From Candidatus Eisenbacteria bacterium (GTDB lineage Bacteria > Eisenbacteria > RBG-16-71-46 > SZUA-252), in NCBI GenBank assembly GCA_035712245.1, contig DASTBC010000136.1, positions 1 through 48,723 on the forward strand: 48,723 nucleotides of DNA, read 5' to 3'. Below the pieces are notes generated by a model that saw only the letters and a program-made list of their open reading frames with translations, did no database searches and was not told the DNA's origin. Both the position numbers and the translations under genes were made by a program. Below are positions 6,928 to 45,443 of this stretch, piece after piece (positions within the stretch are counted from its first letter, which is position 1; the number at the start of each line of letters is the position of its first letter).

Positions 6928-7901
6928 GCCGATCCGTCATTCGCGCCCGGCTTCGCCCCGAAGAGGCGATGACGCTCGCGTTCTTCGCCGTTCTCTTCAT
7001 GGCGCTCGCCGCGATGAGCACGTCGAACGCGGTGCTCGAGGGTCCTGCGGCTTCGTATCCCGGCTCGTCCGTCCGGCTCCTCTTCCTCGTCGCCTCGGTG
7101 GCGGTCTTCCTGGCGCTGATCCGCTTCCGTCCCAACTGGGAGCTGGCGCGCGACTCGATGCCGTTCGTCTTCTGCGGGAACGTCTACGCGAGCCTCCACG
7201 ACTTGATCCGCTTCTTTCGTGCCCCGGACATCACCGCCAGCCTGGCGCGGTGGGACGCGGCCCTGTTCGGCGGGGTGCAGCCGACGGTATGGGCCGAGCA
7301 GTTCATCCACCCGGTCTGGACGGATTTCTTCACGGTCTGCTACTGGCTCTTCTACGTGTGCGCGCCGCTTCTGGGGCTCTTTCTCTGGCTGAAGGGAGAC
7401 CGGCGGGCGTTCCGCTACACGATGGTCTCGGTCGTGCTCTGCCTCTACCTCGGGTACGTGGGCTACTTCGCGTTCCCGGCCGCGCCGCCGAGGCTCTGGA
7501 TGCCGGAGGCGTACGCGATCCCCCTGGAAGGGAACACCATCCTCGACCTCACGCGGTCGGCGACCGCCGCGGTGCCGTTGACCGCGAAGGGAGCCTTTCC
7601 CTCGCTCCATTGCGCGGTCGCGCTCCTCGCGCTCCTGCTTGCCTGGAAGCACCTGCGCTGGTTCTTCTGGGTGCAGCTTCCGTTCGCGCTCGGCCTCGTT
7701 CTGGGGACCGTGTATCTGCGGCACCACTGGGTCGTGGACATCCTGGCCGGATTCACGGTGACGATCGTCGCGTTCGTGGCGGCGCCGTGGATCGAAGATC
7801 GCTGGAACGCCTCCGGGCGATCGGTCAGGAGAGAGCCGGTGGCGACCGGCGTGGGGGACGTGGCGGACACGCCTCTCGAGCGGCACGCCGCGGGCCGCTA
7901 G
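6924..7901 (+). CDS. PAP2-superfamily membrane phosphatase / inositol-phosphorylceramide synthase-like
   Basis: Polytopic membrane protein of about 325 residues with roughly six hydrophobic segments. The PAP2_3 catalytic motifs are present: GAFPSLHCAVAL and, after a hydrophobic helix, YLRHHWVVDILAG. Such enzymes move phosphate or phospho-headgroups on lipids. I use TTG 6924, which overlaps the upstream stop (TTGA), because the basic RARLRPEE segment just before the first helix is typical of the family. ATG 6969 is the alternative and would shorten the protein by 15 residues. A strong hairpin follows at 7914-7939. The substrate cannot be told from sequence. Confidence 0.88.
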   Translation: MSRSVIRARLRPEEAMTLAFFAVLFMALAAMSTSNAVLEGPAASYPGSSVRLLFLVASVAVFLALIRFRPNWELARDSMPFVFCGNVYASLHDLIRFFRAPDITASLARWDAALFGGVQPTVWAEQFIHPVWTDFFTVCYWLFYVCAPLLGLFLWLKGDRRAFRYTMVSVVLCLYLGYVGYFAFPAAPPRLWMPEAYAIPLEGNTILDLTRSATAAVPLTAKGAFPSLHCAVALLALLLAWKHLRWFFWVQLPFALGLVLGTVYLRHHWVVDILAGFTVTIVAFVAAPWIEDRWNASGRSVRREPVATGVGDVADTPLERHAAGR

Positions 7902-7913
7902 CCGCCCACACGA

Positions 7914-7939
7914 AACGAGGGACCCGAAGGTCCCTCGTT
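7914..7939. terminator. Bidirectional hairpin terminator
   Basis: A perfect 11-bp inverted repeat (AACGAGGGACC, loop CGAA, then its complement) lies between the convergent PAP2 gene and the first YWY gene. It can end transcription from both sides. No long U-tract follows on either strand. Confidence 0.8.
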
Positions 7940-7969
7940 CCACTCCGTTCTTCTCTCGAGTCGCCCGTG

Positions 7970-8341
7970 TCAGGGGCTCCAGTGGATCCGGTATGCCGCC
8001 GGGATCGTTCGGATCGTGCGGGGCACGGTGTTCGTCTTCACACGGACGAACGGTCCTTGCCAGGTGTTCGCCCGGTACCAGGCTCCGTTCTCCGCGATGT
8101 ACCAGTAATCCCCGAACCGGTATACGTCCGCGTCCATATCGCTCACATAGTAGACGCGCGTCTCGGGAATGAGGACGGCCTGCGGTTCCGTGGTGAACGC
8201 CACGGCGCCGCGATACCGCTCTCCGACCTTCACAACCGTCGTCTTCGTCGTCGTCTTGCTCTTGCCTTGGGCCCAGGTGGGCGATGCGGTGAGCGCCGCT
8301 CCCAGAACGAGGGCCGCCACCAGCGAAATGGCTCGTCTCAT
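7970..8341 (-). CDS. Secreted YWY-family protein 1 (tandem paralogue, shortest)
   Basis: A 123-residue exported protein with signal peptide (MRRAISLVAALVLGAALT, ending ..TWAQ). The mature part begins with a Lys/Thr-rich stretch and then carries the unit shared with the two genes upstream: GERYRGAVAFTTEP, RVYYVSDMDADVYRFGDYWY, AWYRANTWQGPFVRV and VPRTIRTIPAAYRIHW. It ends at the shared core, lacking the charged tails of the other two. ATG 8341 follows a good AAGGAGGAG site. I do not recognise a named function; the aromatic, beta-like pattern suggests a small secreted or envelope-associated fold. The gene stands alone with its own terminator. Confidence 0.85.
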   Translation of the reverse strand: MRRAISLVAALVLGAALTASPTWAQGKSKTTTKTTVVKVGERYRGAVAFTTEPQAVLIPETRVYYVSDMDADVYRFGDYWYIAENGAWYRANTWQGPFVRVKTNTVPRTIRTIPAAYRIHWSP

Positions 8342-8551
8342 AGAGGTACTCCTCCTTGTGCGTTCAGAACGTACACGCACGAGACCTGTACAGCATTGCG
8401 CGTGCCATCGGTCCATCCCGGGTAATCGGTGCTCGCGACGGTACTTGCCGGAAGGCGGCCCGGGACCGACGACGAACCGGTCTACAATGCAGCGGAGCAA
8501 TTCTCTTCCCGCGTACGAACACGGTGCACGGGAACGCGGCTACAAACGAAC

Positions 8552-8574
8552 GGGGGGCTCCCTCGGAGCCCCCC
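8552..8574 (-). terminator. Hairpin terminator of YWY gene 2
   Basis: A 10-bp perfect inverted repeat (GGGGGGCTCC, loop CTC, GGAGCCCCCC) lies 20 bases after the stop of the 8595-9131 gene. Confidence 0.75.
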
Positions 8575-8594
8575 AACGTTCATCGGACGGCGTC

Positions 8595-9131
8595 TCAGCC
8601 GCGCTCCCGGCGATCCCGATCCCGGCGATCGTCGCGGTCCCAGTCGCGATCCCGATCGCCGTCCCGGTCCCTGCGACCATCCCGCTCCCACTCATCCCTC
8701 GCCCGCCGCCAGTCGCGGTCGTACTCGCGATCGCGCGCCCGAGCGGATTCCCACCGGCGGTCATGGTCGCGGTACGGCGCGTACCAGTGCTGGCGATACC
8801 GGAAGGGAACCCTGCGGATCTCGGCCGGCACGGCCCGGAAGTGGACGTGACGGAACGGTCCACGCCACGACCTGGAGCGGTACCAGAAGCCGTCCTCGAC
8901 GAAGTACCAGTGGTTCCGGACACGGTACAGGTCACGATCGAAATTGCGAACGTAATGCACGTGTGTTCCAGGCACCACCATCACGCGGGGCTCGCTGTGG
9001 AACGATAGCGAGGCTCCACGATAGGGGTCGCCGATCGAGACGGACACGCTGACGGCCGCCTTCGCGGGCTGAGCCGCCAAGGAGAGCGTCGCCAGGAGCA
9101 GCACGACCACCATCGTAGCGATTCGTTTCAT
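8595..9131 (-). CDS. Secreted YWY-family protein 2 with Arg/Asp-rich tail
   Basis: A 178-residue exported protein: signal peptide (MKRIATMVVVLLLATLSLAA), then the shared core (SIGDPYRGASLSFHSEP, THVHYVRNFDRDLYRVRNHW, WYFVEDGFWYRSRSWRGPF, VPAEIRRVPFRYRQHWY) and a tail of about 55 residues made almost wholly of alternating Arg and Asp/Glu. ATG 9131 follows GAGGAGGAA; a much longer open frame upstream is non-coding leader. It is about half identical by eye to the paralogue at 9380-9898 across the core. The RD-rich tail is new relative to gene 1 and suggests polyampholyte, surface or nucleic-acid/mineral contact, which is speculative. Confidence 0.85.
   Translation of the reverse strand: MKRIATMVVVLLLATLSLAAQPAKAAVSVSVSIGDPYRGASLSFHSEPRVMVVPGTHVHYVRNFDRDLYRVRNHWYFVEDGFWYRSRSWRGPFRHVHFRAVPAEIRRVPFRYRQHWYAPYRDHDRRWESARARDREYDRDWRRARDEWERDGRRDRDGDRDRDWDRDDRRDRDRRERG
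8598..8740. repeat. Degenerate short repeat coding the Arg/Asp tail
   Basis: The DNA for the RD-rich tail of YWY protein 2 is a run of imperfect 6-12 base units of the type CGATCCCGATC/CGGTCCCGG. It looks like slippage expansion and could vary in length between strains. Confidence 0.6.
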
Positions 9132-9328
9132 GGGTTCCTCCTCGGATCCCGTCGTGTCTCGCCCGGCGTTTGGCAAGGAACCGATCTGGCCCATCCCGCC
9201 GTGACGTTCTATCTGAATTACCGGGAAGCAGGAGCAACCGTTGGCGTGTGTGCGGACACGAACACGATCCACGCGCCGCATTGCGCGCCGACCCTGCCGT
9301 GCGTCCAGCACGAGGAGGAACAGCAAAA

Positions 9329-9354
9329 CGAGGGGCCCCGTTCGGGACCCCTCG
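9329..9354 (-). terminator. Hairpin terminator of YWY gene 3
   Basis: Inverted repeat with outer stem CGAGGGG/CCCCTCG and inner CCC/GGG separated by one mismatch, loop GTTC. It lies 25 bases after the stop of the 9380-9898 gene, the same arrangement as in the other two YWY genes. Confidence 0.7.
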
Positions 9355-9379
9355 CGTTCTGCGGGTGATCGAGAAACGT

Positions 9380-9898
9380 CTAGTGCTTGTGGCTCTTTCC
9401 GTTTCCCTTTCCGTTTCCGTGACCCTTGTTCTTCGAGCCCTTGTGCGAGCCCTTGTCGTAATGGCCGCGGTCGGAATAGCCGGGATGACGGTCCTTGTCC
9501 TTGTAATATCCGTGCGCCACTGCGTGCGGCGGTGGTCCATTCTTCCAGTGACGGCGATACTTCACCGGCACGTATCGCACGGACCTCGGAACCGAGCTCG
9601 CGCTGATGTGAATGAACGGGCCGCGATAGGACCGCGCGCGATACCAGTAACCGTCGTCGATGAAGTACCAGTAGCTACCGTAGCGATACACGTCGTAGTC
9701 GTAGTCTCGGACGTAGTAGACCCGGGACTCGGGAACCACCACGAGGTCCGGCTCCTTGTGGAACACAAGGGACCCCCCGCGGTACGGATCACCGACCTGA
9801 ATGTGGACGCCGACGCTCGTGCCGGCCTTGGCCGGGGGAGCGGCCGCCAGGATCGCGGTCACGGCGAGCGCGGCAACGCCATACGTCCATCGTTTCAT
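9380..9898 (-). CDS. Secreted YWY-family protein 3 with Lys/Gly/His-rich tail
   Basis: A 172-residue exported protein: signal peptide (MKRWTYGVAALAVTAILAAA, cleavage near PAKA), the shared core (QVGDPYRGGSLVFHKEP, SRVYYVRDYDYDVYRYGSYW, WYFIDDGYWYRARSYRGPF, VPRSVRYVPVKYRRHWK) and a tail of about 45 residues rich in Lys, Gly and His ending GKSHKH. ATG 9898 follows AAGGAGGT. The tail could bind metal or polyanions; that is inference. A perfect 8-bp hairpin (GGCAACCG...CGGTTGCC, 9925-9946) lies in the leader just upstream of the ribosome binding site. Confidence 0.85.
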   Translation of the reverse strand: MKRWTYGVAALAVTAILAAAPPAKAGTSVGVHIQVGDPYRGGSLVFHKEPDLVVVPESRVYYVRDYDYDVYRYGSYWYFIDDGYWYRARSYRGPFIHISASSVPRSVRYVPVKYRRHWKNGPPPHAVAHGYYKDKDRHPGYSDRGHYDKGSHKGSKNKGHGNGKGNGKSHKH

Positions 9899-9924: not shown

Positions 9925-10026
9925 GGCAACCGGACCCACGGTTGCCCACTGGCTTCCAGAGCAACGGCCATGCCACGGCGGAGGGGTGTGCGGCGCCGGT
10001 AAGCTACTTGCATTCAATGGCTTACC
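9925..10026 (-). promoter_or_regulatory. Structured leader of YWY gene 3
   Basis: Two perfect inverted repeats lie upstream of the 9898 start: GGCAACCG/CGGTTGCC at 9925-9946, and GGTAAGC/GCTTACC at 9998-10004 with 10020-10026. They could be operator or mRNA structures. No recognised riboswitch consensus is seen. Confidence 0.35.
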
Positions 10027-10153
10027 GAGCAGGCTCAATCCGGGACGTTTTGGGGACCGTGCGTGACGCGGCGCCAGTGTGGCCGTCGTTGCACGGTGCG
10101 GCTCGAACGGGCCAGGTCGTGAGAGTTGGGAGAGGCGCCCGCAGCAGGCAGTT

Positions 10154-11485
10154 CTAGCGCGGCGAGACCCGTGGTGCTTCCGAGCGCCGCGCTACCTCGG
10201 ACGCGTACACGCGCGCGCTGGGACGCTCGATCCGCGCGTCGCGGGGGTTCTCGAAGTCCGTTCTGTAGAGCCCGAACCGGCCCGAGTGTCCGTCGGCCCA
10301 CTCGAAGTTGTCGAAGAGGGACCAGTGGAAGTACCCGCGCACGTCGACGCCGAGCCGGCGCGCGCGGTCGAGAGCGGCAAGGGACGCGCGGAGGAACTCG
10401 GGCCTCCAGCGGTCCTCGGCATCGGCGATTCCGTTCTCCGTGACGAGGAGCGGCAAGCCGAATCGCGCCATCCGGAGAAGGACGGTCTCGAGCCCGTCCG
10501 GATGGATCTCCCAGCCGAGGTCGCTCACCGGCGCGCCCGGTCGCGCCGTGAGCGGCTCGTTGCCGAGCGCGCTCACCTGCCAGCGCGTGTAGTAGTTGAC
10601 CCCGATGAAGTCCGAGGACCCACGCAACGCGTCGACGGTTCGCCGTACGGCCGGCAGCCCCGGGAGGCGGAAGTCGATCGGTCCGCCCGCCAGCGCCCGA
10701 ACCACGGCCTCGTTGAACACGAGGTGCTGCCAGTGGCTCGCGAGCCGGTCGAGCGGCGACCAGGGGCGGCGCGGCTCGAGCAGCGTCCAGTGCTTCGCCG
10801 CGCCGAGGAGCGCCGGCTTGCCGTCGCCGTCCGCGTCGATACGATCCGCGTCGCGGATCTCCTGCGCCGCGAGGCCGTGCGCCTCGATCATGTTCGCGAT
10901 GACGACGAGCGCGCGGGCGCGATCCCGCACGCCGGGCGGGAAGATCCCCGAATCGTACGCGTAGAACCCGTACACCTCCGGCTCGTTCAGGGTGATCCAG
11001 AGATCGACCCGGTCGCCGAACCGCTCCGCCGCGAGACGCGCGAACCGCCGGAACGCGTCGAGGTTCTGGCGCTCCTCCCAGCCTCCCGCCGAGGCGAACC
11101 ACGCGGGATTCGTGAAGTGGTGAAGCGTGAGGACAGGCTCGATGCTGCGAGCCCGGCAGCCGTCGAGCATGGCGCCGTAGCGGCGGATCGCGTCCTCGTC
11201 GTACCGCCCGGGTGTGGGCTCGATGCGGCTCCACTCGATCGAGAACCGGTACGCGTTCAACCCGAGCCCGCAAATGAGATCGAGGTCTTCTTCCCATCGC
11301 TCCCAGCTCAGGCATGCCGCCCCCGCACGCGCGCCGTCCTTGATGCGTCGCGGCACCGCTTCCCACGCGGGCCAGTCGTTGCCTTCGATCCCGCCTTCGA
11401 TCTGGTACGCGGAGGTCGCCACGCCCCAGAGAAAGGAGAGCGGGCGGAGCCGGCTAGAGGGCGTCCCAGCTTGCACTTGGGTCAT
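10154..11485 (-). CDS. GH1 family beta-glucosidase / 6-phospho-glycosidase-like
   Basis: Retaining glycoside hydrolase of family 1, about 443 residues, (beta/alpha)8 barrel. The start motif FLWGVATSAYQIEGG, the acid/base E168 in WITLNEPEVYGF and the nucleophile E350 in LLVTENGIADAED are intact, as is GYFHWSLFDNFEWADG. No signal peptide is seen, so it acts in the cytosol on imported beta-linked sugars. I use ATG 11485; an in-frame GTG at 11503 adds six residues. Neither has a clear Shine-Dalgarno site. The gene is divergent from an oxidoreductase of the sugar-related Gfo/Idh/MocA family, which suggests linked sugar metabolism. Exact substrate unknown. Confidence 0.93.
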   Translation of the reverse strand: MTQVQAGTPSSRLRPLSFLWGVATSAYQIEGGIEGNDWPAWEAVPRRIKDGARAGAACLSWERWEEDLDLICGLGLNAYRFSIEWSRIEPTPGRYDEDAIRRYGAMLDGCRARSIEPVLTLHHFTNPAWFASAGGWEERQNLDAFRRFARLAAERFGDRVDLWITLNEPEVYGFYAYDSGIFPPGVRDRARALVVIANMIEAHGLAAQEIRDADRIDADGDGKPALLGAAKHWTLLEPRRPWSPLDRLASHWQHLVFNEAVVRALAGGPIDFRLPGLPAVRRTVDALRGSSDFIGVNYYTRWQVSALGNEPLTARPGAPVSDLGWEIHPDGLETVLLRMARFGLPLLVTENGIADAEDRWRPEFLRASLAALDRARRLGVDVRGYFHWSLFDNFEWADGHSGRFGLYRTDFENPRDARIERPSARVYASEVARRSEAPRVSPR

Positions 11486-11655
11486 GGCCGCCAGACGTTC
11501 CACCGATTCTCACAGCGGATCAAGAGGAACTTTGCTCCACGACGGCCCTTCTCCCTGACCCGCTCCGGCTGCCGTGCACGAGCCGCTCCGCGAGCGCTCT
11601 CGGCTGCTCGCGGATCTCGGGCTCGGCCGTCGTTCCCGGAGGTGGTGGCTGGACC

Positions 11656-35064: not shown

Positions 35065-36408
35065 TCACTCGCGCACGAGTCCGTATCTCTTGATCTTCCG
35101 GTGCAGGTACCCTCGATCCATGCCGAGCCGGCGCGACGCCTCGGTGACGTTCCACTGGCACTGCTTCAGCGTGGCGAGGATCGTGTCCCGCTCCGCCTTG
35201 TCGCGCGCCGCCTTGATCTCGCTGGGCGGGCCCTCGTCCGCGTCGGCGGGAAGCACCTCCTCCACCTCCGCGAGGCCGATCGTCTCCCCCTCGGTCATGA
35301 TGAGGAGCCGCTCGACCAGGTTCTTCAGCTCGCGGACGTTGCCGGGCCAGCCGTACTTCGTGAGACGGTCCAGCGCTTCCCGGGTGAAGAGGCGCGCGGG
35401 ACGCCCGTGCTCCTTGCAGAAGCGCTCGGCGAAGTGCGCGATGAGGAGCGGAATGTCCTCGGGCCTCTGGCGGAGCGGAGGCAGATGGACGGGGACGACG
35501 TTCAGCCGGTAGAAAAGATCCTCGCGGAACCGGCCGGCCTCGATCTCGGCGGGGAGATCCTTGTTGGTCGCGGCCACGATGCGGGTGTCCACCGAGATCG
35601 TGCGCGTGCTCCCGAGCCGCTCGATCTCGCCGGTCTCGATCGCCCGAAGGAACTTGGCCTGCGTCTCGAGACTCATGTCGCCGACCTCGTCGAGGAAGAG
35701 CGTCCCCTGGTCGGCGGCCTCGAGGCGTCCTCGCTTCATCTGCGTGGCGCCCGTGAACGCGCCCTTCTCGTACCCGAAGAGCTCGCTCTCGACGAGATCC
35801 TTGGGGAGCGCGGCGCAGTTCAGCTTCTCGAACGGACCGCGCGCGCGGGCGCTCCCGCGATGGATGGCCCGCGCGATGAGCTCCTTGCCCGCGCCGCTCT
35901 CGCCCGTGATGAGCACCTTGGCGTCGGTGCGCGCGACCTTCGCGATCTCCGCGCGGACGTGCTCGAGGGCCCCGCTCTTCCCGACCATCTCGTCGCCGCC
36001 CGCCTGCGCTCGGAGGCGCTCGTTCTCCCGCTGGAGCGCCTTCAGCTCGAGGGCGCGCTCGACGGTGACGAGGAGCCGGTCCGGGCCGAACGGCTTCTCC
36101 ACGAAGTCCGCGGCCCCGAGCCGGATCGCCTTCACCGCCTCCTCGATCGTGCCGTGTCCCGACATGACCACCACGGGAAGATCCGGATGCGAGGCCTTCG
36201 CGCTCTCGAGAAGCGCGAGGCCGTCCTTTCCGGGCAGGCGAAGGTCGGTGATCAGGAGTCCCACGCGCTCCTTGGACAGGAGGCGCTCCGCCTCGTCCGC
36301 GTTCGGCGCGGTGAGCACGTCGTAGTGACGCTTCAGGCTCGCGGACGTCTCGAGGAGGACGGAGGGCTCGTCGTCCACGACGAGGACGCGCGTCTTGGGC
36401 CCGTTCAC
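35065..36408 (-). CDS. NtrC-family sigma-54-dependent response regulator
   Basis: A 447-residue regulator: receiver (1-120, phospho-acceptor D55 in LLITDLRLPGKDG), AAA+ ATPase (about 140-370; GESGAGKE Walker A, the sigma-54 contact loop GAFTGA in YEKGAFTGATQ, GTLFLDEVGD Walker B) and a Fis-type HTH at the end (NVTEASRRLGMDRGYLHRKI). Works with the kinase encoded just upstream, to which it is joined by a GTGA overlap. Activates sigma-54 promoters; no clear -24/-12 site is seen near it. Confidence 0.96.
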   Translation of the reverse strand: MNGPKTRVLVVDDEPSVLLETSASLKRHYDVLTAPNADEAERLLSKERVGLLITDLRLPGKDGLALLESAKASHPDLPVVVMSGHGTIEEAVKAIRLGAADFVEKPFGPDRLLVTVERALELKALQRENERLRAQAGGDEMVGKSGALEHVRAEIAKVARTDAKVLITGESGAGKELIARAIHRGSARARGPFEKLNCAALPKDLVESELFGYEKGAFTGATQMKRGRLEAADQGTLFLDEVGDMSLETQAKFLRAIETGEIERLGSTRTISVDTRIVAATNKDLPAEIEAGRFREDLFYRLNVVPVHLPPLRQRPEDIPLLIAHFAERFCKEHGRPARLFTREALDRLTKYGWPGNVRELKNLVERLLIMTEGETIGLAEVEEVLPADADEGPPSEIKAARDKAERDTILATLKQCQWNVTEASRRLGMDRGYLHRKIKRYGLVRE

Positions 36409-37964
36409 GCCTCCTCCGGCTCGCGGTCCGTGGCGGCGACGAGCGAGAGCCAGGCGCGCGTTCCCAGGCCGGGGCTCGATTCCATTCCGAAGTGGCCTCC
36501 GTGCTGCTCCACGATGCGCTGGACCAGGGTGAGTCCCAGTCCGCTTCCCGTCGACTTGGTGGTGAAGCCCGGATGCACGGCGCGCTCGAGGGTCGCGGGG
36601 TCCATTCCCGGGCCCGTGTCCTCGACCTCGAGGACCAGGCCCGTGCCCTTTCCGTCCTCCGCGCGCACGCGCAGCGTGACCACTCCCTTGTCTCCGAGCG
36701 CCTCGGTCGCGTTCTTGATCAGATTGACGATGACGCGCTGGATCTGGCCCGCGTCGGCCCAGGCTAAGGGAACGGGTCGCTCCACCTCAACGCGGAATTC
36801 GATCGGCGACGATCCCCGGTAGAGCCGAGCCGCGTCCTCCACCAGATCGCCGAGGTCCGTCGGCGCGAACTTCGGCTCGGGGAGCTGCGCCACCGCGGAG
36901 AACGACGTGGCGAACTCCTGGAGCGAGCGCACCTCGCGAAGGATCGAGTCGGCGTTCTCGGCGACCACCTCGGGACGCGGCAGCTCGGGGCGCCGCGCCT
37001 CCTCGCGCAGCCTCTGGAGCGCGAACTGGATCGGCGTGAGCGGGTTGCGGATCTCGTGCGCCACGGCGCGCGCCACCTCGCGCCAGGCGGCGAGCCGCTC
37101 GGCGCGCAGGAGCGCGCGGCGCGACGTCCGGATCTCGTCCACCATCCGGTTGAACGAGGTGGCGAGATAGCGCACCTCGCGCGTTCCGGACGGGGTCACG
37201 CGATGCGCGAGATCCCCTTGCGACACCTTCTCCATCGCGGTCTGGAGGTCGAGGACGGGGCGCGCCACGCTGCGCGAGACGATGTACGCGAGCGCGAAGC
37301 TCACGATTCCGAGCACGAGGCTCCAGAGCGCGGCGAAGATCCAGAGACTCCGCTGGGAGAGCCAGGTGTAGACACCCAGTCGCCGGTACATGGAGAGGTT
37401 CTTCTGGAGGGCCATGATCTCGGAGCTGATCTCGGGATCGAGCTGATAGCCCGCGAGGATCACGTGGCTCGCGTCCACGGACGCGACGCCGCTCACCTGC
37501 CGTGGCGCGTCGTCACCGGAGACGAGGCCCCCTTCCGCGAGCGCCCGGCGGATCGACTCGAGCTCCGGCTGGGGGAGCGTGATCCTCGGGCCGAGCCTGG
37601 CGCCGAAGAGCCGCTCCGCCGTGTCTCCGACGCGGTAGACCGCCACGTAGTCGAGGCCGCGGCCCCGCGCCTCGTCGCGAAGCGTGCGCTCCAGGTCCGC
37701 GAAATTCCCGGCGGTCACGAGCCGTCGCGTCTCCGGATCCAGCGCCAGCACGTCGGCGTGCTGTCTCGCGTCGCTCGCGAGCCGCTCGATCCCGCCGCGA
37801 ATCACCTCGAGCGACTGGGAGAGGGCGCGCTCCGTCTCCGGATTCTTGAGCGCGGAGAGGCTCCGAGCGAGGTACTGCGTGACGAACCAGGTGAGCCCGA
37901 GCGACGGGACGAGCGCGACGACGAAGAAGAGCGCGAGGAGGCGGCCCCGTAGGGTGCCCATCAT
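36405..37964 (-). CDS. NtrY-like membrane sensor histidine kinase
   Basis: A 519-residue kinase partner of the NtrC-like regulator. Two transmembrane helices (8-28 and about 206-230) enclose a periplasmic sensor of about 175 residues with no recognised ligand motif. HAMP at about 231-283, HisKA with H303 in AVAHEIRNPLTPIQ, HATPase with NLIKNATEALGDKG and STGSGLGLTLVQR. ATG 37964 (MMGTLRGRLL) is used since the helix starts here. It lies 16 bases after rlmN. Confidence 0.95.
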   Translation of the reverse strand: MMGTLRGRLLALFFVVALVPSLGLTWFVTQYLARSLSALKNPETERALSQSLEVIRGGIERLASDARQHADVLALDPETRRLVTAGNFADLERTLRDEARGRGLDYVAVYRVGDTAERLFGARLGPRITLPQPELESIRRALAEGGLVSGDDAPRQVSGVASVDASHVILAGYQLDPEISSEIMALQKNLSMYRRLGVYTWLSQRSLWIFAALWSLVLGIVSFALAYIVSRSVARPVLDLQTAMEKVSQGDLAHRVTPSGTREVRYLATSFNRMVDEIRTSRRALLRAERLAAWREVARAVAHEIRNPLTPIQFALQRLREEARRPELPRPEVVAENADSILREVRSLQEFATSFSAVAQLPEPKFAPTDLGDLVEDAARLYRGSSPIEFRVEVERPVPLAWADAGQIQRVIVNLIKNATEALGDKGVVTLRVRAEDGKGTGLVLEVEDTGPGMDPATLERAVHPGFTTKSTGSGLGLTLVQRIVEQHGGHFGMESSPGLGTRAWLSLVAATDREPEEA

Positions 37965-37980
37965 GGGTGCCGCGCGCCCG

Positions 37981-39048
37981 CTATGCCGCGCCGCCTTCGG
38001 TCTCGCCCGCGAGCTGGCCGCAGGCCGCGCCGATGTCCACACCCTGGGAGTAGCGCACCGTCACCGCGGGAACCCGCGGGGCGAGGTAGTCCACGAACCG
38101 CTGGATCCGCTCCGGGGCGGGACGGCGGAACCGGCCGGGGCCGATCGGATTGTAGGGGATCAGATTGACCCGGCAGGGGAGCGACCCGACGAGCCGCGCG
38201 AGCTTCACCGCGTCGCCGATGGTGTCGTTGATCTCCTCGATGAGGATGTACTCGAACGAGACCCGCTCGCCCACCTTCTCGACGTGGTGGCGCACCGCGC
38301 GGATCAGCGACTCGAGCGGGAACCGTCGGTTCACCGGCATGAGCTTCGAACGAAGGTCGTCGGTCGCGGCGTGGAGCGAGATCGCGAGGCGGTAGCGATG
38401 GCGCTCGTCCGCGAGCCGCAGGATTTGCGGGACCATGCCCACGGTCGAGATCGTGATCCGCCGCGGGGGAACCTTCATTCCGTGCGGAGCGCTCATGAGC
38501 CCCAGCGCCTGCATCACCGCCTCGTAATTCTCGAGCGGCTCGCCCATGCCCATCATCACGACGTTGAAGTCATGGACCCCCTCCGGCAGCTCGCTCCGGA
38601 GGCGCACCGCCTGCTCCACGATCTCGCCCGCGCTCAGGTTCCGCCCCCGGCCCATCCGTCCCGTGGCGCAGAAGCGGCAAGCGAACCCGCACCCGTGCTG
38701 GCTCGAGAGGCAGAACGTGTACCGGCGCGGCGTGCTCATGAACACGGACTCGACCACACCGCCGTCGCGGAGCCCGAAGGCGATCTTCCGGGTGCCGCGG
38801 TCCGTGGTCTCCCGGCGGCCGCGCTCGACGAGCGTCGCCACCTCGAAGCTCTCGCGGAGCCGGCCGCGGAGCGACGCGGGCAGGTTGGTCATCCGCTCGA
38901 AGTCGAGCGCCCCCTGGGAGTAGATCCAGCCGGCGATCTGTCTTCCGCGGAACGACTTCTCACCCCAGGAGAGGAGCAGCCGCTCCAGCTCGGGCTCGGA
39001 GAGGCCGATCAGGGCCTCCTTGGGCTCATGGAGGGTCATGGCTGGCAT
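37981..39048 (-). CDS. rlmN: Dual-specificity 23S rRNA/tRNA A2-methyltransferase RlmN
   Basis: Radical SAM enzyme of 355 residues that methylates C2 of A2503 in 23S rRNA and A37 in tRNA. The cluster cysteines are C120, C124 and C127 (CGFACRFCATG); the C-terminal catalytic Cys is C343 (GVDIGAACGQL). The second conserved region VVMMGMGEPLENY is present. ATG 39048 is used, but ATG 39039 is as likely: TAAAAT sits 7 bases before it and neither start has a Shine-Dalgarno site. First gene of the rlmN-ntrY-ntrC-barrel-DUF4390 string. Confidence 0.96.
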   Translation of the reverse strand: MPAMTLHEPKEALIGLSEPELERLLLSWGEKSFRGRQIAGWIYSQGALDFERMTNLPASLRGRLRESFEVATLVERGRRETTDRGTRKIAFGLRDGGVVESVFMSTPRRYTFCLSSQHGCGFACRFCATGRMGRGRNLSAGEIVEQAVRLRSELPEGVHDFNVVMMGMGEPLENYEAVMQALGLMSAPHGMKVPPRRITISTVGMVPQILRLADERHRYRLAISLHAATDDLRSKLMPVNRRFPLESLIRAVRHHVEKVGERVSFEYILIEEINDTIGDAVKLARLVGSLPCRVNLIPYNPIGPGRFRRPAPERIQRFVDYLAPRVPAVTVRYSQGVDIGAACGQLAGETEGGAA

Positions 39049-40823: not shown

Positions 40824-43800
40824 ATGGACGGGCTTGTCCCGAAAGATCGATCGGGCATTCCGAACCGGAGCGCTGGGATCCCTCTCCCGCGGCCGTCCGA
40901 CGCGGGCACGTATGGGGAGCACAAGGCCCAGGAGCTCGGTGACCTCTACTACGCCGCCGACAACTACGTCGTCGCGCTCGAGTACTATCGCCGCGCGCTC
41001 GACTCGGAGTCGAACGGCAATGGGAACGGGAACGGCTCGAAGAATGCGGAGAACCTCCTCCGCGTAGGCACCCAGATCGTCGAGTGCCTCCGGCACCGGG
41101 GCGATCTGAACGAGGCCGTGGACGCGCTCCACGACCTGCACCGGCGGCTCCGGCCCCACGTCACGCGCGAGCAGGCCGGGAGATTGGCGGCGAGCCTCGC
41201 CTTGCTCCTCTTCGAGCGGGGCAGCTACCGTCCCGCGCAGCGCGCCGCCTCGCTCGCCTACCGTCTCCTCCGCGACACCACCCTCAATCTCGACATCGGA
41301 CGAACCGAGATGATCTTCGGGGTGATCGCGCTCCGGACCGGGGACTGGAACTCGGCGCGGGAGTACTTCGAGAGCGCCATCGCGACGTATCGCCGCGCGG
41401 GCTACGACGCGGGCATGGCGTCCGCGTACAACAGCCTCGGGCTCCTCCACAAGAATCACTGCCGCTTCAAGGAAGCCGCTCGGTTCCTCGAGCAGGCGCT
41501 CCGCATCGCCGAGCGCTCCGGCCTCTTCCACGACTCGGCCACCTACGTGCACAACCTCGGGATCGTCCACGAGAAGATGGGCGAGTGGGATCTCGCCGAG
41601 GACCATTACCGGCGCGCCCTGCAGATGAACACCGAGGTGGGGAACGCGGCGGGGAAGGCGCGCGCGCTCTTCTGCATGGGCGCCCTGCGCCGCAAGCGCC
41701 GCGACTTCGCGACGGCCGAGAACCTGCTCCGGCAGGCGCTGGCGATCGCGGTGGAGCGCGGATTCCCGCGCGAGACGATCCTCGCGCGCGAGGGGCTGGG
41801 CGATCTCTATGCCGATCGCGATCTCCTGAACGAGGCTCGCGCGGAGTACGAGACCGGAATCCTCATGGCGGATCAGGTCGCGCCCGATTCCGATCTCACG
41901 GTGGAGCTGGTGCGCCGGCTCGGCGACGTGGTGCTGCGCCTGGGCGAGCCCGAGCTGGCGCAGCGGCACGGCGAGCGCGCGCTCCTGATCGCCCGCCGGC
42001 TCGGCGACCGGATCGAGGAGGCGTGCTCGCTTCGCCTCCTCGGTCTCGTCGCCGCGGAGTCGGGCGAGCTCTCGACCGCGCAGGACCGCCTCGGCGAGGC
42101 GAGCCGCATCCTCCTCGCGATCGGGAAGCGGTACGAGCTGGCGCGGCTCAACCTGGCCGCGGGGCTCTCGTGGAGGAAGCGCGCGCGTCGGGGCAAGTCG
42201 CGCGGGACCCTCGACGAATCGGTGTCGTTCCTGCGCCGTGCCGTGGCCGCGTACGAGAGCTTGAACCTGCCGGCGCTCGCGGCTCGCGCGCTCTTCGAGC
42301 TGAGCCGTAGCGAGCTCCTGCGCGGCCTCGTCGACGAGGCGGTGCTCCATCTCGATCACGCCTCGTCGCTCCTCTCGCCCGAGGAGGATCCCGCGCTCTC
42401 CCGCGAGATCGAGGAGTTCCGGAGCGAGATCGAGCAAGGGCTGATCGAAGGAACCTCGGCTCAAAGCAACGAGTTCGCCGCGTTCGAGGAGATCCGCAGC
42501 GTCCTCCGCGGACGCGATTCCGAGGCCGCCGTCCAGGAGGTCCTCGCGATCACGTCGCGCCGCGTCTCCGCGGCGCGCGGCTGCGTGGCCGCTCCGGCCG
42601 CGCACGGCGGGATCGAGGTCGTGGCGACCGTCGGCATGTCCTTCCGCGTGGCGCAAGACCTCCTCACGGAGCTCGAGCGCCGGATCGGCGCCGCCCGGCT
42701 CGCCTCCGCCCCCGTCGTCACGAGCCGCGCCGGCGCGGACGGGCGCTTCCGTGACCTGCCGGGCGCGACCCACATGGGACCGCGCACGAGCGTCGCGATC
42801 ATGCCGCTCTCGCTTCCGTCGGGGCTACCCGGCTATCTCTACCTCGATCGTCCCGAGGACGGTCCGCTCGGCGCGTTCAAGCAGCGCGAGATCAACCTCA
42901 TGGCCGTGCTCGCGAACCATGTCGCGGTTTCGATCCTCGAGCTCCAGCGGCAGCGGCTCGCGCGCGAGAACACGGCGCTCCGGGGACGGCTCCTCGGCTC
43001 CGCGAACGACCACGGCATCGTGACGCGCAGCCCCGAGCTCCTCGAGATCCTCTCGCTCCTCGAGCGCGTGGGCCCGAGCGACGCGACGATCCTGATCGAG
43101 GGCGAGACCGGGAGCGGGAAGGGACTCCTCGCCCGCGCCATTCATTCGTCCAGCGCCCGCGCGACGAAGCCCCTGATCCAGGTCAACTGCGCCGCGCTGC
43201 CCGAGCAGCTCCTCGAGAGCGAGCTCTTCGGGCACGTGCAGGGCGCCTTCACCGGAGCCGCGCGCGAGAAGGTCGGACTCTTCGTCGAGGCGAACGGCGG
43301 GACGCTCTTCCTGGACGAGATCGACAAGACCACGATCACCATCCAGGGGAAGCTCCTCCACGTGCTCGACAACCGCGAGGTCCGCCCGGTGGGCGGGAAC
43401 AAATCGACCAAGGTGGACGTGCGCGTCCTCTGCGCGACGAACGTGAATCTCAAGGCCCGGATCGCGCGAGGGGAGTTCCTCGAGGATCTCTACTACCGGC
43501 TGAACGACATCTGCTTCCGGGTTCCGCCGCTCCGCGAGCGCCCGGAGGACGTCCCGATGCTGATCGAGCACTACGCCCGCCGCTTCTCCGCCGAGATGGG
43601 GAAGGAGATCAAGGGCGTCGAGCAGGACCTCGTCTCCTGCCTGGCCGGGCTCAAGTGGCGCGGCAACGTGCGCGAGCTGGAGAAGGTCGTGAAGCGGATG
43701 GTGGTCATGGCGAACGATGGCGACACGCTGTCGCTCGGGCTCCTGCCGCGGGAGCTTCTCAAGGCGGACGAGGAGAACGGGAGCGACGCCCCGTCCACCC

Positions 43801-43973
43801 TCAGGGCCGAGGTCGCCAAGGTCGAGCGCCGGCTGATCGCCCAGGCGCTCGAACGCCACAACTGGAACAAGCTCCAGGCCGCGAAGGAGCTCTCGCTCTC
43901 GTATCCGACCCTGCTTCAGAAGATCAAGCTCTTCCGCCTCGATCGCCGCACCGCCGTCCGGCAAAAGCCTTAA
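40824..43973 (+). CDS. TPR-GAF sigma-54-dependent transcriptional activator
   Basis: A 1049-residue regulator. TPR array from about 35 to 520 (for example GTYGEHKAQELGDLYYAADN, AYNSLGLLHKNHCRFKEAAR), with an Asn-Gly run (NGNGNGNGS) inside the first hairpin. GAF-like domain about 551-710, AAA+ at about 733-960 with GETGSGKG, GAFTGA at 807-812 and GGTLFLDEID, then a Fis-type HTH (NKLQAAKELSLSYPTLLQKI). There is no receiver, so it is controlled by ligand or protein binding to the TPR/GAF part rather than by phosphorylation. A Rho-independent terminator overlaps its stop. Confidence 0.93.
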   Translation: MDGLVPKDRSGIPNRSAGIPLPRPSDAGTYGEHKAQELGDLYYAADNYVVALEYYRRALDSESNGNGNGNGSKNAENLLRVGTQIVECLRHRGDLNEAVDALHDLHRRLRPHVTREQAGRLAASLALLLFERGSYRPAQRAASLAYRLLRDTTLNLDIGRTEMIFGVIALRTGDWNSAREYFESAIATYRRAGYDAGMASAYNSLGLLHKNHCRFKEAARFLEQALRIAERSGLFHDSATYVHNLGIVHEKMGEWDLAEDHYRRALQMNTEVGNAAGKARALFCMGALRRKRRDFATAENLLRQALAIAVERGFPRETILAREGLGDLYADRDLLNEARAEYETGILMADQVAPDSDLTVELVRRLGDVVLRLGEPELAQRHGERALLIARRLGDRIEEACSLRLLGLVAAESGELSTAQDRLGEASRILLAIGKRYELARLNLAAGLSWRKRARRGKSRGTLDESVSFLRRAVAAYESLNLPALAARALFELSRSELLRGLVDEAVLHLDHASSLLSPEEDPALSREIEEFRSEIEQGLIEGTSAQSNEFAAFEEIRSVLRGRDSEAAVQEVLAITSRRVSAARGCVAAPAAHGGIEVVATVGMSFRVAQDLLTELERRIGAARLASAPVVTSRAGADGRFRDLPGATHMGPRTSVAIMPLSLPSGLPGYLYLDRPEDGPLGAFKQREINLMAVLANHVAVSILELQRQRLARENTALRGRLLGSANDHGIVTRSPELLEILSLLERVGPSDATILIEGETGSGKGLLARAIHSSSARATKPLIQVNCAALPEQLLESELFGHVQGAFTGAAREKVGLFVEANGGTLFLDEIDKTTITIQGKLLHVLDNREVRPVGGNKSTKVDVRVLCATNVNLKARIARGEFLEDLYYRLNDICFRVPPLRERPEDVPMLIEHYARRFSAEMGKEIKGVEQDLVSCLAGLKWRGNVRELEKVVKRMVVMANDGDTLSLGLLPRELLKADEENGSDAPSTLRAEVAKVERRLIAQALERHNWNKLQAAKELSLSYPTLLQKIKLFRLDRRTAVRQKP

Positions 43974-43999: not shown

Positions 44000-44675
44000 C
44001 CCAAGCTGCTTACGCAGCAGCTAGTTACGCCATTCGCTCCTCGCGACTATTAAATCGACCGCATTTCGGGTCGGTTCTGGGTGACACCGGTCACCAGGAA
44101 CCCGGGACCTCGAAGGGGTTGTAAGTCATTGGATGGTAGATTGTTGCGGTCCTGCTTCGCGGTTCTGAGGAACTCAGACGTTCATGGCATGCGGGCTGCA
44201 ATAGCAAACAACCGGAGGGGGGGACCTCCAAAGAGCCTGCGGGCCTAGCCAGCATTAGCCCATGGGTAAGTCGCCAAATCGAGCACCGGCCTCGGTGGAC
44301 GCGATGTTACCCGCAGAAAGCTGGCAAGGCCGGGGCTCAATTTTTTGGTGTCGAGGGGGCTGGGGCCTCTCTTTGGGGGCCCCGCCTTTCGACGCCCTGC
44401 AATACCGCCGCCTCCGCTCCGCCGCCCTCCGTCGCCGCAGCTTCCGTCCTCGCCCGCGGGCCTCAACTCTGTCGCCAGCCAGTCACAGTGTCTTGGTTCC
44501 ACATCGTTCCCGCCCTCCTTGCGTCGCCATCGGAAACACCATAATCCTCTCGGCTCCAATCGATTGCGCGAGTGGTGTCGACTTCTCGAACCGTGGCATA
44601 TCGGTTGCGGTAGGACGGGACATCGCCATGAACTTCGACGAGCAACCGGCCAAGCATCGCTAGGAGGTGGGGTCC
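43974..44675. other. Low-coding interval with promoter-like site and hairpins; candidate noncoding RNA
   Basis: A 702-base gap with lower GC than its surroundings and no convincing gene. Visible structure: hairpin AGCTGCT/AGCAGCT (44004-44022); TTACGC with 17-base spacer to TATTAA (44025-44053), a possible plus-strand promoter; then hairpins CGACC/GGTCG (about 44057-44075), a 12-13 bp stem GGTTCTGGGTGAC/GTCACCAGGAACC (44073-44102), CTGAG/CTCAG (about 44168), and GGAGG/CCTCC (about 44214) enclosed by GCGGGCT/AGCCTGC. Further on lies TTGCGT with CATAAT (44519-44545) as a possible lipoprotein promoter. The open frame at 44262-44663 has poor codon bias and is not accepted as a gene. Confidence 0.4.
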
Positions 44676-45443
44676 GTGATTCGCTTCTGGGGATTTGCCC
44701 TCGCGTTCGTGGGGGCTCTTGCCGTTTCTGGATGTGATGACGACGAGAACCTCGTCGTGCCCGATCCGCCACCCTTCGTCGTGGAAGGAGTCCGCAGCAT
44801 CACGGGTGACGGGGAGGTGACGATCGTCTGGCGTCACAACCAGGAGACCGACATCGACCACTACAAGATCTACCGCAACGGGGAGCCCACGGGGACGTTC
44901 ACCCTGATCGGCACGAGCACGGACAACGAGTTCGTGGACCAGGACGTCGTGAACGGGGAGACGTACTTCTACGCCGTCGCCGCGGTGGACGAAGCGGGCC
45001 AGGAGAGCCCCGAGCTGAGCTACGAGAACGCGTTCGACACGCCGCGGCCGGAAGGCTTCAACGTGACGCTCACGGACGCGAACACCACGGACGCGACGAG
45101 CGGGTGGGATTTCTCGGCCCAGACGAGGCGGCCGTCGGCCGACCCCGCGACCGATGTTTACTATGCGTTCCAGGACGGCCATTATCTGATCTTCGTGCCG
45201 ACCGACACGCGGATCCAGGACGCGGGCTACGTGCCTCTCGTGGACGTCGACTACGCGCCGCCCGCCGGCTGGTCCGACGACGGCGTCGTGGAGGCGATTC
45301 CGGGGCACAGCTACATCCTGCTCACGCGCGACAACCACTATGCCAAGTTCGAAGTGAACTCGCGGAGCGCGACGGGAATGCTCATCGACTGGGCGTATCA
45401 GATCGACCCCGACAATCCGGAGCTCGTGAGGCCGGCCCCGTGA
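44676..45443 (+). CDS. Fibronectin type III lipoprotein
   Basis: A 255-residue lipoprotein. Signal peptide with lipobox AVSGC (lipidated C20), followed by acidic DDDENL. An FN3 domain at about 35-120 (VRSITGDGEVTIVWRHNQE, then YKIYRNGEP and NGETYFYAVAAVDEAGQES). The C-terminal half has no known domain. GTG 44676 is chosen over GTG 44667 because AGGAGG (44662-44667) is then 8 bases away. Its stop overlaps the start of the next exported protein (GTGA), so the two are cotranscribed and probably act together at the envelope. Confidence 0.88.
   Translation: MIRFWGFALAFVGALAVSGCDDDENLVVPDPPPFVVEGVRSITGDGEVTIVWRHNQETDIDHYKIYRNGEPTGTFTLIGTSTDNEFVDQDVVNGETYFYAVAAVDEAGQESPELSYENAFDTPRPEGFNVTLTDANTTDATSGWDFSAQTRRPSADPATDVYYAFQDGHYLIFVPTDTRIQDAGYVPLVDVDYAPPAGWSDDGVVEAIPGHSYILLTRDNHYAKFEVNSRSATGMLIDWAYQIDPDNPELVRPAP

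Follow-up and report, generated by a model that had tools for sequence, protein, structure and literature searches.

A tandem trio of genes for predicted exported proteins with a common aromatic core, two of them with putative sigma-54 promoters

What is encoded by three small adjacent genes whose products share an aromatic-rich core and match no named family, and how are these genes controlled? We addressed this question in the window, that is, the whole stretch of DNA analysed (48,723 nucleotides of a Candidatus Eisenbacteria contig). The initial annotation had described three minus-strand genes with a common aromatic core, their own leaders and hairpins, and tails that were absent, Arg/Asp-rich or Lys/Gly/His-rich. 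The gene coordinates proved exact (Table 1). Each gene starts with an ATG served by a clear Shine-Dalgarno site (AGGAGG), and the leaders were found in all three products as a K/R pair, a hydrophobic stretch and an AxA-like cleavage site. Export is probably of the Sec type. GC at the third codon position was 0.79-0.81 in the three genes, and dN/dS was ~0.3-0.4 for gene 1 against its orthologues and 0.15 for one orthologous pair in two relatives (G003/G006), indicating that these are real minus-strand genes under purifying selection. When the whole genome was searched with gene 1, gene 2 was retrieved at E=1e-38 and gene 3 at 1e-32, so the likeness within the trio is not due to chance. Identity to gene 1 was 39-46% over the protein length and 47-51% over the core, where 32 positions are invariant among the three. 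The trio are paralogues of one widespread, unnamed family based on a ~72-residue aromatic domain.

Table 1. Features of the trio locus, with positions in the window
Feature	Coordinates	Strand	Description
Gene 1	9380..9898	minus	172-aa exported protein (predicted); ATG at 9898; core residues 46-117; Lys/Gly/His tail
Gene 2	8595..9131	minus	178-aa exported protein (predicted); ATG at 9131; core residues 44-115; Arg/Asp polyampholyte tail
Gene 3	7970..8341	minus	123-aa exported protein (predicted); ATG at 8341; core residues 49-120; no tail
GH1-type beta-glucosidase gene	10154..11503	minus	upstream neighbour, conserved in 7 related loci; probable identity, named from sequence
PAP2-like membrane phosphatase/transferase gene	6963..7901	plus	convergent downstream neighbour, conserved in 6 related loci; probable identity, named from sequence
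Sigma-54 -24/-12 box of gene 1	9960..9975	minus	TGGCATGGCCGTTGCT; perfect; begins 77 bp before ATG
Sigma-54 -24/-12 box of gene 3	8392..8407	minus	TGGCACGCGCAATGCT; one mismatch, GG/GC intact; begins 66 bp before ATG
Terminator-like hairpin after gene 1	9328..9355	minus	12 pairs
Terminator-like hairpin after gene 2	8551..8575	minus	11 pairs
Hairpin after gene 3	7911..7941	minus	GAGGGACC-TTCG-GGTCCCTC region
Possible enhancer half-site, gene 1	10086..10096	minus	CGTGCAACG; 118 bp upstream of gene 1 box; exploratory
Possible enhancer half-site, gene 3	8521..8531	minus	CGTGCACCG; 121 bp upstream of gene 3 box; exploratory

In agreement with the initial annotation, which had recognised no named function, the core matched no family in Pfam, NCBIfam, PHROGs or the PDB. 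No relatives were found in viral contigs or plasmids, and an Rfam scan of the window gave one tRNA as its sole match. Profile searches with the core defined a real family. A starting HMM made from the three trio cores detected 62 domains, one to three per protein, in loci from the window's genome and 19 relatives. A later profile of 30 family sequences was positive in 20-21 of the 47 genomes of the phylum, depending on the threshold; among 338 genomes from outside the phylum, 14 contained remote homologues. The latter are likewise exported proteins or lipoproteins and have low-complexity tails, and the eight that were tested contained no Pfam domain above cut-off. Signal peptides occur throughout the family and a lipobox is present in some relatives, in keeping with the export first proposed for these proteins; an envelope or extracellular location is what such signals suggest. 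A 1935-aa surface protein from Clostridia (L013) was rejected as a homologue, its YEGYWYFIDDG repeats resembling the core only locally. Further paralogues lie in the same genome (G000) on C173 (L010:2740-3342) and C16 (L009:8526-8891 and L009:2126-3280); one has two domains, one is a tailless protein with a single domain and one is a degenerate two-domain protein, and a sigma-54-like box with two mismatches lies 71-75 bp upstream of all three. One family gene of G006 (L054:7125-7646, minus strand) shows an apparent frame shift past the core (RLWALQGGAQG...) and may be a decaying copy or an assembly error.

The family occupies a conserved genomic position. In seven related genomes its genes directly follow the GH1-type gene and, where the contigs continue, precede the convergent PAP2-like gene and then an NDP-forming acyl-CoA-synthetase-like gene. 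This slot holds three copies here, one in G001, G005 and G007, two in G003 and G006 and four in G004 (the G002 contig ends past its first family gene), indicating that the array expands and contracts, as the idea of an expanding family had anticipated. Because the core tree, built on 74 columns, was poorly resolved, we do not claim an order of duplication.

The composition of the tails was as described: that of gene 1 contains 18% K, 15% H and 20% G, that of gene 2 contains 37% R and 27% D, and the gene 3 product stops 3 residues past the core. The suggestion that these tails are interchangeable, on the other hand, did not hold. Across relatives, a PPPHAVAxGYYK segment is retained behind the core of gene-1-like proteins, and in G003 and G006 the second copies have the same RDRD tail; tail type tracks core type, which is evidence against free exchange. 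Rather than exchanged modules, the tails appear to be low-complexity extensions that evolve quickly. Within the core, the alignment of 30 proteins showed that W85 and P104 are invariant and that P50, D69, R72, R87, G93, P94, V103 and P111 are nearly so; in the DxDxD segment, the last Asp (D69) is nearly invariant and the other two vary freely. AlphaFold, run on the three window sequences, predicted a beta-rich core (pLDDT 77, pTM 0.71). A Foldseek search with this model returned no significant match and no PDB fold counterpart, many of the weak matches being beta-propeller proteins with TM <= ~0.31, to which we gave no evidential weight.

Two alternatives to a polymer-binding function bear on these features. 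The family could be a structural scaffold of the matrix or envelope with no specific glycan ligand, in which the aromatic cores would associate with one another or pack against the outer membrane, with the polyampholyte tails serving as hydrated spacers. The near charge-neutral mixtures of R/K and D/E in the tails of most members, the existence of lipoprotein versions and the high aromatic content agree with this explanation, but conservation at specific core positions suggests a defined fold and site rather than bulk stickiness, and the tail is absent in some members; we regard it as rather unlikely. Improbable, in our judgement, is a periplasmic function in stress or metal handling, with DxDxD and His/Asp tails binding Ca2+ or transition metals under an NtrC/ZraR-type activator. 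Although DxDxD is repeated in genes 1 and 3, some members have His/Gly/Lys tails and ZraR-type sigma-54 activators exist, other paralogues are tailless or Arg/Asp-tailed, and a calcium loop, considered as a candidate, is unlikely because only one of the three Asp residues (D69) is conserved.

The upstream regions yielded the strongest of the new findings, a regulatory link that was absent from the initial annotation. Scoring the sigma-54 element TGGCAYR-N4-TTGCW (GG at -24 and GC at -12, 10 bp apart), we found boxes before genes 1 and 3, whereas gene 2 had none (best match, 4 mismatches). A sigma-70 promoter scan found no promoter, and gene 2 has no sigma-70-like site. Of the family's 25 genes within the taxonomic family, 9 carry a perfect box in the interval 40-110 bp before the start and 13 carry one within one mismatch. 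Among 347 control ORFs taken from these loci, the corresponding counts are none and one, and that one is an alternative start belonging to a family gene; perfect boxes occur in 0.07% of random 70-bp pieces. The window's own genome has 9 perfect sites in 3.5 Mb, and nine genomes contain 54 in total, 9 of them before family genes. In the loci examined, other perfect boxes precede the genes for a type IV pilin (pilA), PilM, a lipoprotein and an exported TPR protein, which validates the motif; pilin and PilM were identified from sequence. Several multi-domain paralogues, and likewise most distant homologues outside the phylum, lack a box. The genome encodes both rpoN and enhancer-binding activators (about 22 strong sigma-54 activator genes, two of them inside the window), and RpoN was found in 28 of 29 relatives. 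Across phyla, sigma-54 has been tied to genes building the bacterial exterior (Francke et al. 2011, PMC3162934). Altogether, putative sigma-54 control of genes 1 and 3 is well supported. The absence of a box in gene 2 would suit a coincidental promoter likeness, with the genes being constitutive or silent duplicates, but this is very improbable given that several genomes conserve the box at a set position, while none of the 347 controls has a perfect one, and that the trio genes are under purifying selection.

An exploratory analysis further upstream pointed to a possible enhancer element. In 10 of 17 family promoters, against 3.6 expected, a TGCA motif chosen post hoc was located 92-131 bp upstream of the box, and the same post hoc motif is present in 2 of 3 pilA, 4 of 5 pilM and 2 of 2 lipoprotein promoters. 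Nine other sigma-54 promoters do not have it at that place, and an exact dyad search for a shared enhancer site found none common to the promoters. The stretch between the TGCA element and the box is AT-richer (0.41-0.48 vs about 0.31). Known sigma-54 promoters whose DNA is bent show a comparable AT enrichment. The window itself encodes two candidate, though unlinked, activators for the array: a response regulator of the NtrC family together with its histidine kinase (35065-38042, minus strand), and another sigma-54 activator, 1049 aa long (40824-43973, plus strand). A near-perfect box, TGGCATATCGGTTGCG, was also noted at 44594-44609 (plus strand), ~83 bp before a GTG start near 44677; the ORF at this start begins VIRFWGFALAFVGALAVSGCDDD and probably encodes a lipoprotein. 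Elsewhere in the genome, an 843-aa triple-repeat gene (L011, G000 C231) adjoins a sigma-54 activator gene on the same strand, and two matches to the sigma-54 DNA-binding domain on G000 C250 and C162, one in a 208-aa open frame, may represent a second rpoN or an assembly duplicate. In four related genomes, a ~424-aa exported TPR protein (L134, L138, L139, L151) has a conserved perfect box ~245 bp upstream of its start.

At the other end of the transcripts, a hairpin follows each of the three stop codons, as had been noted, with shuffle z-scores of -4.5, -4.2 and -2.8 for genes 1, 2 and 3, and those of genes 1 and 2 also pass a terminator scan. Separate transcription is probable. The statement that the genes are regulated separately is nevertheless amended, since genes 1 and 3 both carry sigma-54 boxes and would use the same sigma factor, while gene 2 has no recognisable promoter. 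Overall, what the initial annotation had observed was confirmed and its interpretation was partly supported.

The best explanation, to which we give an even chance, is that the trio belongs to a surface-associated, probably glycan- or envelope-binding family induced by sigma-54 together with type IV pili. Export signals, lipoprotein versions, tandem aromatic domains, the co-occurrence of the promoter with pilA and pilM, and homology to 'V/XII' proteins (see below) favour a surface or matrix polymer-binding protein, and one to three tandem domains per protein fit multivalent binding. This evidence suggests a cell-surface role without proving it; the lack of a curated carbohydrate-binding module (CBM) match, the lack of a PDB fold match and the missing box in gene 2, several multi-domain paralogues and most distant homologues outside the phylum stand against it. 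In the account that we infer, for surface location, ligand, tail role and activator identity alike, sigma-54 RNA polymerase and an enhancer-binding activator would drive transcription of the trio family in the phylum, as for pilA and pilM. This step has sequence-level support for genes 1 and 3, and gene 2 would need another promoter or read-through. Since sigma-54 control would be common to the trio family, pilA and pilM, we propose that the products are made when cells switch to a piliated life attached to a surface. Once beyond the inner membrane, the proteins would most likely contact polysaccharide or another envelope polymer through the aromatic face of the domain, the charged tails would add hydrated, electrostatic contacts, and gene and domain duplication would tune dose and avidity. 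More tentatively, and less likely than not, the core may be an unnamed surface-binding domain found in several phyla in single or tandem copies, which sigma-54, acting in this phylum through a common TGCA enhancer, would induce together with type IV pili, and which is encoded by an array that expands and contracts in one fixed slot. What was an anonymous trio is now a defined domain family for which a profile, a phylogenetic range, a conserved locus and a regulatory handle are available. Its link to sigma-54 and to pilus genes offers a first testable role for proteins outside every curated library, in a lineage that is uncultured and whose regulation is hardly known.

Compared with known systems, the trio family has no curated name and is distantly related to known repeat proteins. 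The 30-sequence profile, built without the ~800-aa proteins of the own genome, matched such proteins on C231, C148 and C292 with E-values of 1e-8 to 1e-13, and the core HMM identified three repeat copies each in those of C231 and C292. The C292 protein is up to 57% identical to 'carbohydrate-binding family V/XII' proteins in Pseudoalteromonas and shows ~33% identity to an 'SH3 domain-containing protein' in Rhizobium, both names stemming from automatic annotation. Pfam detected no carbohydrate-binding module in the own-genome ~800-aa proteins, and Pfam and NCBIfam gave no curated match of the trio to CBM family 5/12. The likeness to the 'V/XII' proteins (e.g. Pseudoalteromonas shioyasakiensis NZ_CP077771) lies in the triple weak repeat that their own-genome ~800-aa relative shares with the trio core. 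In contrast, the trio proteins are small and single-domain with charged tails, and the repeat of the large proteins is diverged. Single- and triple-domain exported proteins of the VVVLPDTYVYVVPD...FFFYDGFWWRPWRGRWYRS type from outside the phylum (L118, L119, L123-L125, L129) resemble the trio family in their signal peptide or lipobox, core pattern and low-complexity charged or Gln-rich tails, but most have no visible sigma-54 box; they are not in Pfam either. The WXXGXW repeat (PF12779) is similar as a short aromatic-rich secreted repeat, and 2 of 30 family members match it weakly (best E 0.007, with scores short of the curated cut-off), whereas the window proteins do not match it and the spacing differs. 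Finally, although their proteins are unrelated to the trio, sigma-54-dependent surface genes such as pilA share with it the -24/-12 element, a similar distance to the start codon and the same genomes.
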